A program made the position numbers and the translations under genes. Shown piece after piece: positions 2,341 through 35,891 of a stretch of 64,000 bases of DNA (position 1 is the first letter of the stretch; the number at the start of each line of letters is the position of its first letter). Source of the stretch: Chrysosporum bergii ANA360D. Its GTDB lineage: Bacteria > Cyanobacteriota > Cyanobacteriia > Cyanobacteriales > Nostocaceae. Location: the NCBI RefSeq assembly GCF_029891735.1, contig NZ_JANQDH010000082.1, forward strand, positions 1 through 64,000, given 5' to 3'. A model generated the notes under the pieces. That model was given only the letters and a program-made list of their open reading frames with translations, had not been told where the DNA came from and searched no databases.

Positions 2341-3867
2341 CTAAGCACCTACAGCTTCTTTAGCTGCATACAGCACTTCCGCGTTAATTTCTTTAAAACC
2401 TCGCTCACGAGCAAATTTTTCGGTGTTACGCTTGACTTTACCACGCACAAATCCAGGAATTTTGTTTAATTCTGCTTGACCGTCCTTAGTCCAGTTGAGG
2501 TCAGATTCCGCAGAAATTCCCTTGGTAATCACTTCTTTGGTGTCGTGACCACCGAATATTTCTAAGAGGTGGTCTTCCATACCCAAGGTAAAGGAATTGT
2601 AAATCAAGTCTGTGATCTGGTTTGTACCTTCGTAACCTAAAAATGGTTTGTAACCAATGGGGAAATTCTGCACGTGAATAGGTGAAGCAATGACACCACA
2701 GGGAATATCTAACCGTTTACCAACGTGGCGTTCCATTTGAGTACCAAAAATCGCTGCGGGTTCAACACGAGCGATCGCATCGCCAATTTCCCCGTGGTCA
2801 TCGCTAATCAGCACCTCATCGCAATAGTCCTTCACCTGTTCCCGAAACCAGTCAGCATCATATTTACAGTAGGTTCCAGCCCAAACAACATGAATCCCCA
2901 TTTCTCTAGCCAAAATTTTAGTGATTCCCGCAGCGTGGGTATTGTCACCAAACACCACCGCTTTTTTACCAGTCAAGTTTTGACAGTCAATGGAACGGGA
3001 GAACCAAGCGGACTGAGATACATACAAAGTCTGTTCATTGATAAACTCTTCGTAGTTGACATCAGCGCCTTGGTCATTAATCACCTGCTGAATCTTGCGG
3101 ATACATCGAGCAGTTTCTACTACACCTATAGGGGTAATATCCACATAAGGCGTGCCAAATTGGCCTAACAAATAATTAGCCGTGGCTAAACCCAGTTCTC
3201 GGTAAGGAACCAAGTTAAACCAAGCTTGGGGTAGTTTTTTCAATTCATGAACCGTCGCGCCTTCAGGAATTATGGTATTGACTTCAATTGCCAAATCAGC
3301 CATCAGCCGCTTCAGTTCGGTACAATCGTGGTTGTTGTGAAAACCAAGAGTAGAACTACCAATAATGTTAACAGAGGGTTGTGCAGTTTTACCTAGTGGC
3401 AATTCTCCCCGCTTTCTGGCTTTTTCGATGTAGTATTGAACGATTTGATTAAGGGTGCGATCAGCGGCTTGTAATTCGTTAAAGCGGTAATGGTTAACAT
3501 CTGCTAACATTACATCCCCTTTGGCTTCTAGCTGCGCCCGTTCGACAAAGTTGTGTAAATCTTCCTGCAAGATGCTAGAGGTACAGGTGGGAGTTAAGAC
3601 AATTAAATCTGGGTGTTCCTCAGCATCTTTGCGGGTGATGTTGTCTACCACCTTTTCTTGCGAACCCCTTGCTAAAACGTTGCGGTCAACCACACTGGTT
3701 GTCACTGGGGTGAAGTTTCTTTCCCGCGATAACATAGAACGCATGACGTTAAAGTAGTCATCCCCTAGTGGAGCGTGCATAATCGCATGAACGTTTTTAA
3801 ATGAGCTAGCCACCCGCAGAGTACCAATGTGGGCTGGTCCTGCATACATCCAGTAAGCTAATTTCAT
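2341..3867 (-). CDS. chlB: Light-independent protochlorophyllide reductase subunit B
   Basis: ChlB is the catalytic NB-protein partner of ChlN in the dark-operative protochlorophyllide oxidoreductase, a nitrogenase-like complex that reduces ring D of protochlorophyllide for chlorophyll synthesis; it is fed electrons by ChlL. The sequence is full length and highly typical: [18 protein letters not shown] at the start, [14 protein letters not shown] with the conserved cysteine region, and the C-terminal segment about [19 protein letters not shown], which is the ChlB tail domain. The open frame runs to an ATG at 3888, but I chose the ATG at 3867 because it gives the usual N-terminus and the family length of 508 aa. 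chlL and chlN are not adjacent. Confidence 0.97.
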
Positions 3868-4165
3868 GACTGTGTTCTCCCTTTGCAACTGAAAATAACT
3901 ATAAGTGGATAATTATCAAATCGCTTGACTATTGTCTCAAAACTGAGATGGGGGTTTAAAGTTAGTAATTAATAGCTCAAACCTATTCTATGATAGGGTT
4001 TTAGCCTTTATATTTAACAATGTTTCTGTTTTTTAATTAAATAACTCTTAATGATTTGAAAAATATTTTATTAATTATTGGTTTAACTTACTAGTATTAA
4101 TTAGTTCACTAAACGTGGGAAGATGCGGAGATAAAAATACAAGTATTACAAGTATTAGCTCTAAA
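3868..4165. other. AT-rich intergenic region upstream of chlB
   Basis: About 300 bp without a convincing gene. It should hold the chlB promoter and leader (chlB is read leftwards from here) and the end of the dev operon. I could not pick out a clear sigma-70 box, terminator or operator by eye. Confidence 0.5.
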
Positions 4166-20247: not shown

Positions 20248-21714
20248 ATGATTAACACCACCGAAACAATTCAACATTGGCTAGTAGACAACATAGCCAA
20301 TGTACTAGACCTAGAAACCACCGAAATAGACGTAAATCAGGACTTAGAAACATATAACATAGATTCCACCAAAGCCATTATTTTAGTCAGCACTTTAGAA
20401 AAAAAATTAGGGCTTAACCTCTCACCCGTCTTATTATGGCATTACCCAAACATTAAATCTCTTGCCCAGTATTTAGCCCACGACTTAGAATCCAGTTTAG
20501 AAAATCCCAAAAATCTAAATAACCATTCCCTTATCAACTTAGATCATGAAATAGAGCTTGACCCTACCATCCTTCCCAGTCAGCCTCCAGAATTTTGTAA
20601 TACTGAACCCAAACAAATATTTTTAACTGGTGGTACTGGCTTCCTAGGTGCTTTTTTAATTTGGGAACTACTACAAACAACCAAAGCCGACATATATTGT
20701 TTAGTCCGCGCTGACAACACCCCAGAAGGCAAGAAAAAGTTACAAAATAACTTAATAAAGTATAAAACTTGGAGCAGTGAATTTAATTCTCGTCTAATTC
20801 CCGTAATCGGAGACCTATCCCAACCCCTATTAGGCATCAGCCCTCAACAATTTTATCTTTTAGCCAACCATATTGACATCATCTATCACAGTGGAGCCAT
20901 GTTGAATTATGTTTACCCCTACTCAGCATTGAAACCCACTAATGTTTTTGGCACTCAAGAAATACTGAGATTAGCTTGTGCAGTTAGAGTCAAGCCAGTA
21001 CATTACATTTCTAGCATAGCAGTGTGGGAATCAAAAGCTTACGCTAACCAGGTAGTAGAAGAAGACAACCAACTTAATCATTGGCAAACAATTTATCTTG
21101 GTTACTCTCAAAGTAAATGGGTAGCCGAGAAAATAGTTCAACTCGCCAGACATAGAGGTTTACCCGTCACCATTCACCGTCCCCCCTTAATTGGAGGACA
21201 TAGCCAAACAGGCATTAGTAACCCCAACGACTTCATTAACTTAATGCTTAAAGGTTGTTTACAGATGGGCATCTTTCCAGACCTAGACTATATGTTAGAT
21301 ATCTCACCCGTCGATTACGTCAGTAAAGCCATTGTTTATCTGTCAAAACAACCACAATCCATAGGCAAAGCATTTCATTTACAACATCCCCATCCCATAT
21401 CCTTCAAAGATTTATTTAACTGGCTACAGCAGTTTAGTCATTCCCTGAAAATAGTTCCCTATAAAAAATGGCAGTCAGAGTTAGCCCATAACGTCACCGA
21501 CACCAGTCATCCCTTATACACCTTACGCCCTTTTTTATTAGAACAGTGGTCTGAGCAGCAGTTAACCATTCCCGAATTGTATTTACAAGGCACAAGAGCA
21601 AACATCACCTGTAACCAAACCCTTAAAGCCTTAGCTGGCAGTCACATTACTTGTCCCCCCATCGACACCAAACTCCTAACACTTTACACCCTTTACCTAA
21701 ATTCCCTCCATTAG
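20248..21714 (+). CDS. ACP-thioester reductase (HglB/HetM-like)
   Basis: A 488-aa protein with an N-terminal carrier domain (residues 1-80; NIDSTKAI with phosphopantetheine Ser40) followed by an extended short-chain dehydrogenase thioester reductase. The NAD(P)-binding motif is LTGGTGFLG (about residue 125) and the catalytic pair is YSQSKW. Enzymes of this layout, such as HglB/HetM, release the ACP-bound chain reductively as an aldehyde or alcohol. This predicts a fatty alcohol end product for the cluster. The frame also begins with a TTG at 20242, but ATG at 20248 is the better start. A pyrimidine-rich leader precedes it. Confidence 0.88.
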   Translation: MINTTETIQHWLVDNIANVLDLETTEIDVNQDLETYNIDSTKAIILVSTLEKKLGLNLSPVLLWHYPNIKSLAQYLAHDLESSLENPKNLNNHSLINLDHEIELDPTILPSQPPEFCNTEPKQIFLTGGTGFLGAFLIWELLQTTKADIYCLVRADNTPEGKKKLQNNLIKYKTWSSEFNSRLIPVIGDLSQPLLGISPQQFYLLANHIDIIYHSGAMLNYVYPYSALKPTNVFGTQEILRLACAVRVKPVHYISSIAVWESKAYANQVVEEDNQLNHWQTIYLGYSQSKWVAEKIVQLARHRGLPVTIHRPPLIGGHSQTGISNPNDFINLMLKGCLQMGIFPDLDYMLDISPVDYVSKAIVYLSKQPQSIGKAFHLQHPHPISFKDLFNWLQQFSHSLKIVPYKKWQSELAHNVTDTSHPLYTLRPFLLEQWSEQQLTIPELYLQGTRANITCNQTLKALAGSHITCPPIDTKLLTLYTLYLNSLH

Positions 21715-21779
21715 TTCCCCCTTAGAATCTTCTTTTTAGCTGACACCCACCAAGTTACAAACCCGCCCAAATAACCCGC

Positions 21780-22649
21780 CTAAAGGTAGAGGCTACTACA
21801 ATCATTCGGGCGCGCGTGTAAATACCGTGAAGTAGTAGCCACAGAAGCATGACCCAAACTTTGACTAACCAAATGAATAGGCGCACCCCTATCTAGTGAA
21901 TGTGAAGCGTGTCCGTGCCTTAACCAGTGCGGACTAAGGTCATTCAAACCTACTCTCCTAGCAGCCCTTTTAACAATTTCCCAAACCATAGCACGGGTTA
22001 AAAAACCCATTCTCCCTTGGCGACCGCAAAAAACTGGATATCCCTTATCACCATCACCCCTTAACTGCAACAATTCCTCATATAACTTACAGGGAATAAT
22101 CACCACCCTAGTTTTACTACCCTTGCCACATATAGTAGCTTGACCATTTCCATCATAACCATGTGACAAATCCCCCCAAGTCAAATTAGTCAACTCTGTA
22201 GCACGCAGTCCACAGTAATACAACATTTTTAAAATCAACCCATTCCGTTGGTTAGTTTCTGACTGTATCAGTATATTTATTTCCTGCTCAGACAGTATGC
22301 GTTCCGTCAGTGCATCCCTTGGTTTAGGAGTTTTTATCATTTTACCCACGTTATACTGCGTAATCCCCAACTCGTGAGCAAAAGTCAGCAGTGACTTAAC
22401 TATATTAGTATAAGTTTTTTTAGTGTTATCATTAGTACATAGTAAATTATCAACCCATTGTTGGACATCATCCAACGCAATATTAACAAGTGGTTTGTTT
22501 ACAAAAATTAAGAACTTAACAGCAATACGCTTGTAACTGTCTTGAGTAGACCTACTCTTACCATGTAGCCACATATTAAGTAGTACATCAATAGGTTTAT
22601 CAGCATATTGTGTTACTGGTGTAAATTGACTTAGCGTAGTGAGCGTCAT
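21780..22649 (-). CDS. Tyrosine recombinase (phage integrase/XerC-D family)
   Basis: A 289-aa site-specific recombinase. The N-terminal SAM-like core-binding domain (about 20-105) precedes a catalytic domain with box I Arg in CGLRATEL, the conserved HxxR as HWLRHGHA, the second His in LGHASVATTSRY and the nucleophile Tyr in the same segment (SRYLH). All catalytic residues appear intact. It is read away from a large tandem-repeat array that begins 46 bp upstream of its start codon, so the repeats are natural candidates for its operator or recombination sites. It sits between the lipid cluster and the CRISPR array, marking a likely accessory-DNA boundary. Confidence 0.9.
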   Translation of the reverse strand: MTLTTLSQFTPVTQYADKPIDVLLNMWLHGKSRSTQDSYKRIAVKFLIFVNKPLVNIALDDVQQWVDNLLCTNDNTKKTYTNIVKSLLTFAHELGITQYNVGKMIKTPKPRDALTERILSEQEINILIQSETNQRNGLILKMLYYCGLRATELTNLTWGDLSHGYDGNGQATICGKGSKTRVVIIPCKLYEELLQLRGDGDKGYPVFCGRQGRMGFLTRAMVWEIVKRAARRVGLNDLSPHWLRHGHASHSLDRGAPIHLVSQSLGHASVATTSRYLHARPNDCSSLYL

Positions 22650-22694
22650 TTTATTATTAACTCTGTCCTATTGGTTTCCTTGAGCAGATTTTTC

Positions 22695-23388
22695 ACCGTG
22701 ATAAAGTTATCAAGATTTTTATCACGTTTATCAAGACTTTTATCACGTTTATAAAAATTCAGAGCCTGGAAGCCTTACAGCATCTAGGTTTTCCTACCGT
22801 GATAAAGTTATCACGATTTTTATCACGTTTATCAAGACTTTTATCACGCTCATAAAAATTCAGAGCCTGGAAGCCTTACATCGCCTATGTTTTCCTACCG
22901 TGATAAAGTCATCAAGATTTTTATCACGCTTATCAAGATTTTTATCACGTTTATCACGTTTATCACGCTCAGAGCCTACAACCCTTACAGCGCCTAGATT
23001 TTTCTACCGTGATAAAATGATCAAGATTTTTATTACGCTTATCACGTTTATCACGCTCGTGAAAATCCAAGCCTGCAACCCTTGCCAATCCTAGATTTTT
23101 CTACCGTGATAAAGTCATCAAGATTTTTATCACGTTTATCACGTTTATCACGCTCGTGAAAATTCAAAGCCTGGAACCCTTGCCAATCCTAGATTTTTCT
23201 ACCGTGATAAAATGATCAAGATTTTTATCACGTTTATCACGTTTATCACGCTCGTGAAAATCCAAAGCCTGGAACCCCTACAACATCTAGGTTTTCCTAC
23301 CGTGATAAAATGATCAAGATTTTTATCACGTTTATCACGTTTATCACGCTTGTGAAAATCCAAAGCCTGGAACCCCTACAACTCCATT
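22695..23388. repeat. Tandem array of seven ~100-bp units with inverted CGTGATAAA / TTTATCACG motifs
   Basis: Units begin at 22695, 22796, 22897, 23006, 23103, 23201 and 23299, spaced 101, 101, 109, 97, 98 and 98 bp apart. Each opens with (C)CGTGATAAA, continues through a short spacer (for example ATGATCAAGATT), then two or three copies of the exact reverse complement TTTATCACG, often tandem at 9-bp period, and closes with a conserved AGCCTGGAACCC-like segment and CTAGxTTTTYCTA. The opposed motifs can form a hairpin of about 10 bp or bind a dimeric protein. The last units (5-7) are nearly identical while the first ones diverge. Short ORFs across it are products of the repetition. Confidence 0.9.
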
Positions 23389-23408
23389 GACATGATTGTA
23401 GTTAGCTT

Positions 23409-23515
23409 TTACCGAGGTTCAGTCAAAATAGCTGAAAAGGTTATTTTTCCGTTTTAACCTGCGGTTCCTTACTGCATAAAGGTTTCAGCCATTTTGATCA
23501 TCGGTTTATCGGTAA
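23409..23515. repeat. Nested inverted-repeat (fold-back) element before the CRISPR array
   Basis: Three nested stems are visible. The outer stem is TTACCGA (23409-23415) with TCGGTAA (23509-23515). The middle stem is TCAAAATAGCTGAAA (23423-23437) with TTTCAGCCATTTTGA (23483-23497), one mismatch in 15. The inner stem is AGGTTA (23438-23443) with TAACCT (23455-23460). The whole would fold into a long hairpin of about 107 nt. It falls in the leader zone 75 bp upstream of the first CRISPR repeat and directly after the tandem array. Confidence 0.65.
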
Positions 23516-23589
23516 TTCAGCCATGATTTTTCCTGACCTTCGGAAACCGTGTCTAGACTTCTTACCAGCTAAGGGTTTAAAATAGGGGG
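23516..23589 (+). promoter_or_regulatory. CRISPR leader-proximal segment
   Basis: The degenerate last repeat lies at the right end of the array, so the leader must be on the left and the array is read rightwards. This A/T-rich segment ending in GTTTAAAATAGGGGG borders the first repeat. No unambiguous promoter boxes can be assigned; the fold-back element just upstream may be part of the leader. Confidence 0.4.
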
Positions 23590-24511
23590 GTCCCCACTCG
23601 CTGGGGATATCATTTGAATGGAAACCCCCAGTTTTCATCCTCTACATACCATTTATAATTAGGATGTCCCCACTCGCTGGGGATATCATTTGAATGGAAA
23701 CTGTATGCTTGATACAGAAGGGATTTAGAGAATATGGTCCCCACTCGCTGGGGATATCATTTGAATGGAAACGTATTCATCTTGATATTTTTCAATAAAT
23801 CTTCCGAGGCAATATGTCCCCACTCGCTGGGGATATCATTTGAATGGAAACATCTATTGATTTGATAGCTTCTACTGGGTACTCATCCCCCTTATAGAAA
23901 GTCCCCACTCGCTGGGGATATCATTTGAATGGAAACAAGGCGTTTATGTAAACGCCTCCTACCTTTTTTCTAGTCCCCACTCGCTGGGGATATCATTTGA
24001 ATGGAAACCCCTCCATCACATAGGATGGATAATAGTCTAAGTCGTCCCCACTCGCTGGGGATATCATTTGAATGGAAACGAGGGAACAAACCCTTTTTCT
24101 CCTTCTCCTTCTCCTTTGTCCCCACTCGCTGGGGATGTCATTTGAATGGAAACCTTTTGAAAATCATGCAATCATCACCCCCACTAACGTCCCCACTCGC
24201 TGGGGATATCATTTGAATGGAAACGTTTTACTTCTAGTGAGTTCCCTCAATTCTCGTTGAGTCCCCACTCGCTGGGGATATCATTTGAATGGAAACTTCA
24301 CAAGGAACATAGCTACCTCCTATTCCAGCTTTTAGTCCCCACTCGCTGGGGATGTCATTTGAATGGAAACTCACACAGCGCAAGTTTACTTAAAATTAGG
24401 AGCTAGTCCCCACTCGCTGGGGACATCATTTGAATGGAAACCCGGCTACTCATGACTGCCGGTTAATTTTTCCTAATCCCCACTCCCTGGGGACATCAAT
24501 TGAATAGAAAC
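23590..24511 (+). CRISPR. CRISPR array, 13 repeats of 36 bp and 12 spacers
   Basis: The repeat begins GTCCCCACTCGCTGGGGA (CCCC/GGGG stem) and ends GAATGGAAAC, a GAAAC-type 3' end that gives the usual crRNA 5' handle. Repeat starts: 23590, 23666, 23737, 23816, 23901, 23973, 24044, 24118, 24189, 24261, 24335, 24406 and 24476. Spacer lengths are 40, 35, 43, 49, 36, 35, 38, 35, 36, 38, 35 and 34 bp, variable as in many type III or I-D arrays. Repeats 8, 11 and 12 carry single changes in the ATATCAT segment; the last repeat is clearly degenerate (first G to A, CTCCCT, CAATTG, AATAG), fixing the leader-distal end. No cas gene adjoins it; the type III-D-like operon is 29 kb to the right. Confidence 0.98.
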
Positions 24512-24514
24512 AAC

Positions 24515-24563
24515 GAACCCGACAACCAACTGTAATCATTACAGTCAGTTGGGTTCTATTTTT
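24515..24563 (+). terminator. Terminator closing the CRISPR array
   Basis: Immediately after the last repeat, GAACCC...CCAACTGTAAT pairs imperfectly with ATTACAGTCAGTTGGGTTC, a long stem, followed by TATTTTTATC. This has the shape of an intrinsic terminator for the rightward pre-crRNA transcript. Confidence 0.65.
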
Positions 24564-24576
24564 ATCCCACCTTGTC

Positions 24577-24598
24577 TGACATAAGTACTGTTATGTCA
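24577..24598. promoter_or_regulatory. Palindrome TGACATAA / TTATGTCA
   Basis: A perfect 8-bp inverted repeat with 6-nt centre lies between the CRISPR terminator and the ribbon-helix-helix gene promoter. It may be an operator; the bound protein is unknown. Confidence 0.35.
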
Positions 24599-24626
24599 AA
24601 CTGGATTTTTTAAATGCCAGCACAAC

Positions 24627-24694
24627 TTGTATTGACAGTCTATACAAGAAACTTATACAATTTGTATTGACAGTCTATACAAAAAACCTATACA
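24627..24694 (+). promoter_or_regulatory. Duplicated palindromic promoter/operator of the RHH gene
   Basis: The 21-bp near-palindrome that starts TTGTATTGAC and ends GTCTATACAA occurs at 24627-24647 and 24662-24682, a 35-bp period. Each copy contains TTGACA, and TATACA follows 16 nt later (24632 with 24654; 24667 with 24689), so each is also a plausible sigma-70 promoter. The second would start transcription almost at the ATG. A partial copy (GATTGTATTGACAATTCC) lies inside the end of the gene near 24830. This is typical of autorepression by a ribbon-helix-helix protein. Confidence 0.65.
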
Positions 24695-24697
24695 GCT

Positions 24698-24865
24698 ATG
24701 AAGGAAAAATTAGCATCATTTCGGGTTGACAAAGAGTTGTGGGAAGCTTTTAAAGCCGTAGCTAGTGATCGTGGGACTTCTGCCAGCTGTTTGCTTGTGG
24801 ATTTCATCGAATCGGTTGTTAGTAATAAAGATTGTATTGACAATTCCGCGGTAGACAGGCGATAA
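24698..24865 (+). CDS. Small ribbon-helix-helix (CopG/Arc-like) DNA-binding protein
   Basis: A 55-aa protein too short for routine ORF calling. MKEKLASFRVDKELWEAFK gives the N-terminal beta strand and first helix, followed by AVASDRGTSASCLLVDFIESVV, the second helix of the RHH fold (length and spacing fit). RHH dimers insert the strand into the major groove; many are autorepressors of plasmid-copy, toxin-antitoxin or mobile-element genes. Two palindromic operator-like sites lie directly upstream. No obvious toxin gene follows on the same strand; the next gene is convergent. The role in this patch is unknown, but its position next to the CRISPR array and recombinase suggests mobile-element ancestry. 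Confidence 0.7.
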   Translation: MKEKLASFRVDKELWEAFKAVASDRGTSASCLLVDFIESVVSNKDCIDNSAVDRR

Positions 24866-24885
24866 GTTTGTAAGCTGTAGTTTTA

Positions 24886-25473
24886 TTAAAACCCACAATC
24901 ATAGGAATCCCTGTATCGTTTATTTATCATTTCTAATGCTTCCTGTGTATTCCATTTTTCGTCTTTAGGCAAATCTTTTATTGATTCTAAAGATGCAGGA
25001 ACTGGAGTATTTGTTAATTGATAAACTACTTTTGCAATTTCTTTCGCACAGCTATTCGCGTAACAACATACCTGTTTTTCTGAAAAGCGAATAACTATCC
25101 ACCTTTTATTAATAAAAAAATTATTTCTTCCGGTGTCGTTAGTATGACAAGTTATGTATTCATCATCTACTTTTGTATACGGTTCATCTATCTCAATATC
25201 AAAAAAAAGTCCATCTTGGATATAACAGATATCTGGACTATATGGATAAGGGAAACCATCAATATTTAGATAAGCTCCTGTTATCAATTCTCCTGGTAAA
25301 TATTTTCTTATACTATTCCTTAAAAAATGTTCACATCTACCTTCTCTAGCATTATTTCCAACCCCATCATATTTATATATTTCCTTGATAAAGATATCGA
25401 TTAATCCTTTATGGTATTTTTCTATGCTTTCCGGTAATTTTAGCTTTTCTACTTCCTCCCCATATTTTCTCAT
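24886..25473 (-). CDS. Hypothetical protein with PD-(D/E)XK nuclease-like core
   Basis: A 195-aa protein. The segment PDICYIQDGLFFDIEIDEPY followed by RNNFFINKRWIVIRFSEKQV resembles the layout of small PD-(D/E)XK (DUF559/Vsr-like) domains: an aspartate before a strand, an ExD pair at the strand end, then a W-x-V-I-R-F strand. The canonical catalytic Lys is not obvious, which is common in this superfamily (an ExD or ExE pair can substitute). No membrane segment is seen. A stop codon precedes the chosen ATG in frame without other starts. It converges on the RHH gene with a 20-bp gap. Nuclease function is a tentative inference; a host-defence or mobile-element role would fit the setting. Confidence 0.5.
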   Translation of the reverse strand: MRKYGEEVEKLKLPESIEKYHKGLIDIFIKEIYKYDGVGNNAREGRCEHFLRNSIRKYLPGELITGAYLNIDGFPYPYSPDICYIQDGLFFDIEIDEPYTKVDDEYITCHTNDTGRNNFFINKRWIVIRFSEKQVCCYANSCAKEIAKVVYQLTNTPVPASLESIKDLPKDEKWNTQEALEMINKRYRDSYDCGF

Positions 25474-25697
25474 TTCATCTTCAAATATTGATAATAATCC
25501 CGGATATCTTGTTTTTTCTGTTCACCGAGTTGGGAGATAGTTTAATCAACTCTTAATGTAGTTTTGGTTTGTGGTTGAGTGGGTGGTTATTTTTTTGATA
25601 AAACCCACAGTGCAGTTGATCTGTAATGTTGTTTACAGTAATTTTCAGCTTGATTAAAGTATTAGTAAATTAACTGGCAAGAACTAATATTTAGGAG

Positions 25698-35183: not shown

Positions 35184-35449
35184 AGATTTTCTCTGGAAGT
35201 GGACAAAAAATATAGAGTGCTTCTGTTCTCCATCATAGGCCGAACCCCCTTGTTAAGGAAAGTCTAGCTAGATGAGAGATTAATTTTTGCAAATCTCAAA
35301 AAAATTGTTGTCATATTCTGGAATTAGATGCTATAGTGGTCAAGGCAGTAAACAAGACGAAAACTATTACGCATTTCTAAGTTATTAGATTTTAGTAGGT
35401 TTTCTCAGTTGCTGTTTAGTACCTGTAAAAAAAAACAAACTACCCGTTC

Positions 35450-35768
35450 GGGGGTGTGGCGGAATGGTAGACGCTACGGACTTAGAAAACTGAGCCTTGA
35501 TAGAGAAATCTGTCAAGTGGAAGCTCTCAAATTCAGGGAAACCTAAATCTGTGAACAGACAAGGCAATCCTGAGCCAAGCCGAAACTAATTACTGTTCGG
35601 AAGGTGCAGAGACTCGACGGGAGCTACCCTAACGTTAAGCCGAGGGTAAAGAGAGAGTCCAATTCTCAAAGCTAAAGGCTACTACAGCCTAGCAGTAGTG
35701 AAAGCTACGAGAGAATGAAAATCCGTTGACCGTAAAAGGTCGTGTGGGTTCAAGTCCCTCCACCCCCA
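35450..35768 (+). tRNA. trnL(UAA): tRNA-Leu(UAA) split by a group I intron
   Basis: The acceptor stem GGGGGTG (35450-35456) pairs with CACCCCC (35761-35767), with discriminator A at 35768. Exon 1 is 35450-35483 and exon 2 is 35718-35768, giving an 85-nt tRNA. The anticodon stem ACGGA/TCCGT surrounds loop CTTAAAA, so the anticodon is UAA, and the intron splits it after its first base (U). The T arm GTGGGTTCAAGTCCCTC is intact. CCA is not encoded. Confidence 0.97.
35484..35717 (+). ncRNA. Group I intron in trnL(UAA)
   Basis: A 234-nt intervening sequence between T34 and A35 of the anticodon. It ends in the expected terminal G (GAGAATG) and has the group I core: P/Q-like AATTCAGGGAAACCTAA, then CAATCCTGAGCCAAGCC, R/S-like GTGCAGAGACTCGACGGGAGCTACCCTAA. 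This intron is widespread in cyanobacteria and plastids and is used for strain typing; many examples self-splice in vitro. No endonuclease ORF is inside. Confidence 0.95.
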
Positions 35769-35891
35769 TTAACTAATGTTTTGGTTTTCTCAACTGTAAT
35801 TTTGGCGGTTTTACATGGTGTGTGAGCGATCGCAGTTCGTGGTAAGCACTTTATTAACGTCGGTCTAGAAACGAGCTAGAAAATTTGGAAA

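Follow-up and report, generated by a model that had tools for sequence, protein, structure and literature searches.

A seven-unit tandem hairpin array in a plasmid-like island of Chrysosporum bergii, tentatively read as an iteron-like cluster of protein-binding sites

The island and its hairpin array

The window analyzed here is a stretch of 64,000 nucleotides from Chrysosporum bergii ANA360D (contig NZ_JANQDH010000082.1, positions 1 to 64,000). Within this window, the region 21715-25600 looks like an island, a mosaic of plasmid-type DNA in a chromosomal-looking setting. To the left of the island are genes that we take to be of the heterocyst-glycolipid type (named with the help of Pfam domains), and to its right the similarity to genomes G016 and G042 begins at approximately 25604-25620. 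Upon comparison with possible empty sites, the genes flanking the island were found on different contigs in G016 and were not neighbors in the other genomes tried.

The island contains the gene of a Xer-like tyrosine recombinase of 289 aa (21780..22649, minus strand; Phage_integrase), a hairpin array of seven tandem units (22686..23388, 703 bp, no strand assigned), a CRISPR leader (23399..23589, plus strand) and the CRISPR array itself (23590..24511, plus strand), in which a pattern search identified 12 repeats and one additional degenerate repeat was recognized by eye. Beyond the CRISPR lie a dif-like palindrome of 11-6-11 layout, GTCTGACATAA-GTACTG-TTATGTCAAAC (24574..24601, no strand assigned), and a 35-bp tandem repeat of 2.1 copies (24622..24694, no strand assigned) that comprises two copies of the palindrome TTGTATTGACAGTCTATACAA. 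This repeat precedes the gene of an Arc-like (RHH) protein of 55 aa (24698..24865, plus strand), which is followed by the gene of a 195-aa protein of no family (24886..25473, minus strand). These two genes were searched against plasmids only, and both have relatives on cyanobacterial plasmids (best 44.5% for the 195-aa protein). No recognizable initiator was present among the nine proteins scanned around the array. The TTGTATTGACAGTCTATACAA palindromes differ from the array motif and are possibly the operator of the RHH gene. An earlier note on this DNA had put the RHH protein forward as one that might bind the array; since its gene is preceded by these palindromes of its own, the RHH protein is probably a poor candidate, and the proposed tie was not upheld.

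Tandem Repeats Finder (TRF) revealed one array at 22686-23380 with a period of 98 bp, 6.9 copies and 85% matches, and the seven-unit array described in the earlier note is thus real. The units occupy 22686-22786, 22787-22887, 22888-22996, 22997-23093, 23094-23191, 23192-23289 and 23290-23387 (units 1 to 7), so that their starts are 101, 101, 109, 97, 98 and 98 bp apart. Each unit has a core of the form CGTGATAAA-N12-TTTATCACG, which is followed by more TTTATCACG copies and then by a spacer of approximately 40 bp; in unit 4, one arm of the core is mutated. The first hairpin (22697..22726, no strand assigned) has 9-bp arms and a 12-nt loop, and its counterparts start at 22798, 22899, 23008 (one arm mutated), 23105, 23203 and 23301, while in some units the core is a 10-bp stem with a 10-nt loop. 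The distances reported earlier were correct: 46 bp separate position 22695 from the recombinase start codon at 22649 (48 bp when counted from the first motif base at 22697), and the array ends approximately 200 bp before the first CRISPR repeat at 23590.

The 9-mer CGTGATAAA/TTTATCACG occurs in 26 exact copies in the 64-kb window, 25 of which are located inside the 703-bp array; the expectation for the whole 64 kb, from 100 shuffles, was a mean of 0.43 and a maximum of 3. Among 174 further 703-bp tiles of the window, which overlap one another, no 9-mer exceeded four copies per tile. Seven of the 25 exact copies in the array are CGTGATAAA and 18 are TTTATCACG. CGTGATAAA is present exactly once per unit; the inverted TTTATCACG, for which two to three copies per unit had been given, in fact varies between one and four exact copies (2, 2, 4, 1, 3, 3 and 3 in units 1 to 7). 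With one mismatch permitted, the 9-mer has 30 copies at steps of 9, 12, 21 and 49-59 bp. An inverted copy lies 21 bp past CGTGATAAA in all seven units (exact in six, with one mismatch in unit 4), an offset of approximately two helical turns, although the units are copies of each other and the constant offset therefore represents one event rather than seven. TRF additionally found nested periods of 9, 21 and 98 bp. The identity between units was 97% in the motif columns and 79% in the other columns. This difference was reached by 2 of 95 circular shifts, and the comparison involves some circularity, since recurrence was the criterion by which the motif had been chosen. Similarity tends to be highest between neighboring units, and units 4-7 make up a local subfamily, with 88-94% identity among themselves and 75-86% identity to units 1-3.

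The array units fold moderately better than shuffled sequences, but not dramatically so. As DNA, six sequences (from five of the seven units, one of them on both strands) gave z-scores of -2.2 to -3.9, and as RNA, five sequences from three units gave z-scores of -1.4 to -3.0. Covariation was almost nil, with 1 of 19 base pairs changed on both sides, and given these RNA z-scores and this covariation a structured RNA was rejected. A coding repeat was also rejected, since the only ORF of at least 60 aa within the array has 64 aa and is itself repetitive. The array looks non-coding and, in agreement with the earlier impression, resembles an iteron or multi-operator array. No Rfam family matched at the array, as expected from the earlier statement that no named family was known, and a literature search with the motif returned no title on such an array among the matches listed. 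The sole Rfam match in the window was a group I intron at 35474-35678; by eye, this intron region (35440-35770) splits a tRNA-Leu-like gene that was not called by ARAGORN. A group I intron splitting such a tRNA gene is ordinary in cyanobacteria.

The array was found just once in its own genome (G000; 120 contigs, 98.5% complete), in which neither dispersed REP/MITE-like copies nor a second 9-mer cluster pointing to a cognate protein was found. When 192 genomes of the family (sampled from a larger group, the own genome included) were searched at the DNA level, the array was found in the own genome only and scraps of 28-48 bp in 4 of the 191 others; the weak matches L003-L006, of this length, were rejected because they are without such an array. 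The doubled 9-mer (at most one mismatch) was present in 2 of 120 genomes and the hairpin pattern in 2 of 198 genomes, the second genome having one copy in either case. Across 198 genomes, an RNA model of the units had no matches other than the seven units of the array itself, with stricter filters by which weak matches may be lost. The sets of 192, 120 and 198 genomes overlap. The wide dispersal that, according to the earlier note, would make the array a generic repeat was thus not observed. No phage record gave a blastn match. Fourteen plasmid records matched at 89 places; the matches listed, the best one per record, cover the recombinase or CRISPR side, and none of them touches the array. 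As side observations, L005 carries a 21-bp repeat of another sequence, and a stretch of approximately 32 bp resembling the unit spacer occurs at about 1500-1540 in L003 and L006, once per genome in two genomes of one genus (149 searched). This stretch lies upstream of a gene that by eye is psbA-like and is too short to interpret.

The recombinase, the dif-like palindrome and the CRISPR leader

The recombinase was nearest to the XerA/XerC/XerD models, below their curated cut-offs. The residues R, K, HxxR, H and Y, which are expected in the tyrosine recombinase family, were invariant in an alignment of seven sequences. We found eight distinct close homologues with 70-80% identity; three of these come from complete plasmids and the remaining five from other contigs (duplicate records L007/L027, L008/L029, L009/L028, L026/L055, L030/L056, L031/L058 and L032/L059; L057 was single). 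The array is absent from all eight, and the 9-mer has zero copies in 40 recombinase loci (L007-L011 and L026-L060, several records being included twice). The close homologues instead have a different upstream palindrome, and the functional link between the array and the recombinase suggested by the earlier note is not supported. In six of the eight (L007, L009, L030, L031, L032 and L057), GTTYGACATAA-N6-TTATGTCAAWC lies upstream of the gene, exactly 65 bp from the start codon. In L008 and L026, only the gene-proximal arm of the palindrome is present and the far side is different DNA, a one-arm state that could follow from recombination with another site. A related palindrome is present in two homologues with approximately 53% identity, at positions -120 and -123. 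Most other homologues with approximately 50% identity gave no match to the palindrome pattern used, and many at this level of identity share a ATTCAACATAAGAAT stretch near the start (by eye). Two of the homologue loci contain repeats of their own: L007:5567-5811 is an unrelated 89-bp tandem repeat (2.8 copies) located 3' of the recombinase gene, and L057 has a 69-bp palindromic repeat in the recombinase locus, but inside an ORF.

In the window, the corresponding palindrome is located at 24574-24601 and is presumed to be the recombination site of the recombinase. The pattern TGACATAAN{4,8}TTATGTCA occurs once in the 3.9 Mb assembly, inside 24574-24601, and a matrix built from the six homologue sites scored 28.9 bits at 24574 and at most 3.8 bits elsewhere in the window, the array included. 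With the palindrome at this position, approximately 1.9 kb consisting of the array and the CRISPR lie between the recombinase gene and the presumed site; once this stretch is removed, the flanking DNA can be aligned with the homologues. A weak site-like match of 3.8 bits at the array/leader junction (23385-23412) was considered as the second half of an integration event and was rejected, because its 6-bp spacer differs from that at 24574 and its score is near background (next 3.2 bits).

Neither cas1 nor cas2 was found beside the CRISPR of the window, which is an orphan, III-B-like one. Its leader is homologous to leaders adjoining cas2, and the leader and repeats are homologous to Nostoc and Anabaena plasmid loci with csx18, cas1 and cas2; cas10 is annotated as type III-B in two of three of those homologous plasmid stretches. 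Leader or repeat matches were present in 35 of the 192 family genomes, the own genome included. Depending on the relative, the leader homology starts at 23399-23425, just past the hairpin array. Besides the window's own leader, we compared 32 leader loci (at least two records were seen twice, L134/L085 and L145/L086, and L141, L143 and L146 have <400 bp upstream); the array is absent from all of them, with zero or one upstream 9-mer copies. In one further locus, L153, no leader was found. The cas2 gene was found in 22 of the 32 loci, and in 21 of these 22 its end lies at most 20 bp from the leader start. A second leader in the own genome (contig C46:37787-38004) is 91% identical and has a single repeat and no array. 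Because the array is missing both at the leader loci elsewhere and at this second leader, it is unlikely to be part of the CRISPR module, and the connection with the CRISPR drawn in the earlier note was not confirmed. Upstream of the second (C46) leader there is another, unrelated tandem repeat (L122:8274-8633), with a 120-bp period and 2.9 copies, which overlaps an ORF of 349 aa.

Readings of the array

Our best reading, to which we assign a probability of roughly 0.4, sees in the array a cluster of multiple binding sites for a protein, of the iteron or operator kind, active or relic, in a plasmid-derived mosaic. The 9-bp site TTTATCACG, in both orientations and at 9-, 12- and 21-bp steps, would have been amplified into seven units of approximately 98 bp, and a sequence-specific dimeric DNA-binding protein would load cooperatively on the array. 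This protein would belong to a plasmid or satellite element and would be its replication initiator, a partition protein or a repressor. The array would have come with, or have been assembled within, a plasmid-derived mosaic consisting of the recombinase, the dif-like site, the RHH gene and the 195-aa gene, and the same mosaic would also have received the orphan III-B-like CRISPR. This tentative reading is consistent with the 25 exact 9-mers in both orientations, which have no comparable cluster in the 174 window tiles, with the inverted copy at 21 bp in all units and the 97% versus 79% identity of the motif and other columns, with the plasmid affinity of the neighboring genes, and with a TTTATCACG cluster 3' of a primase gene in a satellite phage (L110/Javan70, described below). 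Several results nevertheless argue against it. There is no recognizable initiator in the nine scanned proteins, although the 195-aa protein has no family, and the array may for this reason be a relic. None of three DnaA-box patterns was present in 21701-25600; the DnaA box is dispensable in some iteron origins. Additionally, the genome holds no second cluster that would point to a cognate protein, no phage record and none of the 14 best plasmid matches listed touches the array, the satellite-phage contig is an analogue and not a relative, covariation is almost nil (1 of 19 base pairs), and one arm of unit 4 has decayed. If the array did function as an iteron or centromere, the protein recognizing it would have a new DNA-binding specificity in cyanobacteria, in which, to our knowledge, plasmid replication and partition sites are little mapped.

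Close behind, and nearly as likely, is a neutral minisatellite, in which an AT-rich hairpin palindrome was expanded by replication slippage and unequal crossing-over and is used by no protein. The similarity of adjacent units, which also counts against the binding cluster, the subfamily of units 4-7, the nested 9-, 21- and 98-bp periods and the restriction of the array to one genome would all be expected of such a repeat, and the island is a mosaic of plasmid-type pieces with an orphan CRISPR. Moreover, the 120-bp repeat near the second CRISPR leader and the 89-bp repeat on the plasmid locus L007 indicate that unrelated tandem repeats occur in such surroundings. In contrast, the 9-mers are kept while the unit spacer diverges, and copies persist in both orientations, something that simple slippage would not call for. 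A rather unlikely reading is that the array would act as a parS-like partition centromere bound by an RHH-type ParB, in the manner of the WATCACW heptads of pSM19035. TATCAC is common to the array site and WATCACW, the gene of an Arc-like protein lies 1.3 kb away from the array, and PMC9499535 describes high-affinity binding of two dimers to direct or inverted repeats in pSM19035. However, the array has steps of 9, 12 and 21 bp rather than consecutive 7-bp WATCACW sites, the last base is G and not W, no parA was identified among the nine window proteins scanned, and it is another palindrome, in two copies, that precedes the RHH gene.

The readings that involve the immediate neighbors fare worse. 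That the adjacent tyrosine recombinase uses the units as arm sites, core sites or operators is very unlikely: the array does lie 46-48 bp upstream of the gene, near the position of the homologues' palindrome (-65 to -38), but it is present in 0 of 8 distinct close homologues, the site matrix singles out 24574 (28.9 bits, against at most 3.8 elsewhere, array included), the hairpin loop of 10-12 nt does not fit the 6-bp spacer of the presumed site, and the enzyme is a short Xer-like protein. An accessory part of the CRISPR leader, acting in promoter or adaptation control, is more improbable still. Approximately 10 bp separate the end of the array from the point at which leader homology begins earliest, but the array is missing from all 32 homologous leader loci, the second copy of the own genome included (three of them with <400 bp upstream), and in 21 of the 22 loci with cas2 this gene ends at most 20 bp from the leader start. 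A broader scenario, which we consider unlikely, concerns the island as a whole: a plasmid-type Xer-like recombinase of Nostocales would have a dif-like attachment site in its own 5' region, where, in this genome, foreign DNA consisting of the iteron-like array and a cas-less cassette of CRISPR leader and array would have been captured, and since an intact site is still present on the far side, the recombinase might serve to move CRISPR arrays.

Comparison with known systems

We scanned 2.9 million IMG/VR contigs for the 18-mer consisting of the doubled 9-mer and found three contigs, one with a cluster (L110) and two with the doublet only. L110 contains six 9-mers at 3699-3966 (270 bp) in abutting 9-bp steps and both orientations, where 0.08 were expected in the contig, and this cluster is located directly 3' of a D5/DUF5906 primase gene. 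A 361-bp stretch of the L110 origin is 100% identical to the Streptococcus satellite phage Javan70. Javan463 and Javan343, two of 31 matching records, have by eye a similar layout in which the motif now takes TTTTATACG or TTTATACAC forms. A change of motif with a kept layout is what might be seen if these repeats evolved with an initiator as iterons do. In the origin regions of the Streptococcus satellite phages L161, L162 and L163, the repeat layout seems to be kept and the repeat sequence changed (by eye). Because L110 was picked by its motif from 2.9 million contigs, it is an analogue showing what such a cluster can do and not a relative by descent. Ten viral contigs with one inverted pair had at most one further 9-mer copy.

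PMC6092414 reports for Gram-positive PICIs an origin lying immediately 3' of the replication gene, and for E. coli PICIs an origin with two iteron sets on either side of an AT-rich region; from this description, Javan70 may be a PICI-type satellite of that kind. The present array differs from the Javan70 origin in being without a recognizable primase/rep gene and in its seven regular units of approximately 98 bp; the host phylum is different, there is no homology beyond the motif, and the array does not consist of two sets flanking an AT-rich region. What the two have in common is the 9-mer TTTATCACG itself, abutting 9-bp direct repeats and inverted copies.

The Xer/dif systems bear on the recombinase and the palindrome rather than on the array. 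The 11-6-11 palindrome and the XerA/C/D-like enzyme are common to both, whereas here the palindrome lies beside its own recombinase gene in the homologues, often on plasmids. In PMC3025954, dif prediction failed for every cyanobacterium tried; the dif-like site is for that reason a more testable by-product than the array, and the palindrome 65 bp upstream of plasmid-type Xer-like recombinases would, set against that account, be a concrete candidate core site in Cyanobacteria. The parS heptad arrays of pSM19035, bound by omega, an RHH ParB (PMC9499535), share with our array clusters of a TATCAC-containing site, but the spacing and the last base differ, and no ParA was identified here among the nine proteins scanned.

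The best functional analogue of the array may be an iteron origin. Such origins have multiple copies of a short site, here 25 exact copies, and an adjoining initiator gene; the recombinase, the 55-aa RHH protein and the 195-aa protein match no initiator family. Since a recognizable adjacent initiator gene is one of the defining features, we do not file the array as an iteron origin. Compared with the iterons of the theta plasmids RK2, F, P1 and R6K, as presented in PMC4980987, the array has both orientations within each unit, and no Rep gene or DnaA box was found in the regions and proteins searched here; it resembles them in its many copies of a short site, and its 21-bp sub-repeat falls within the 17-22 bp range of known iterons given there.
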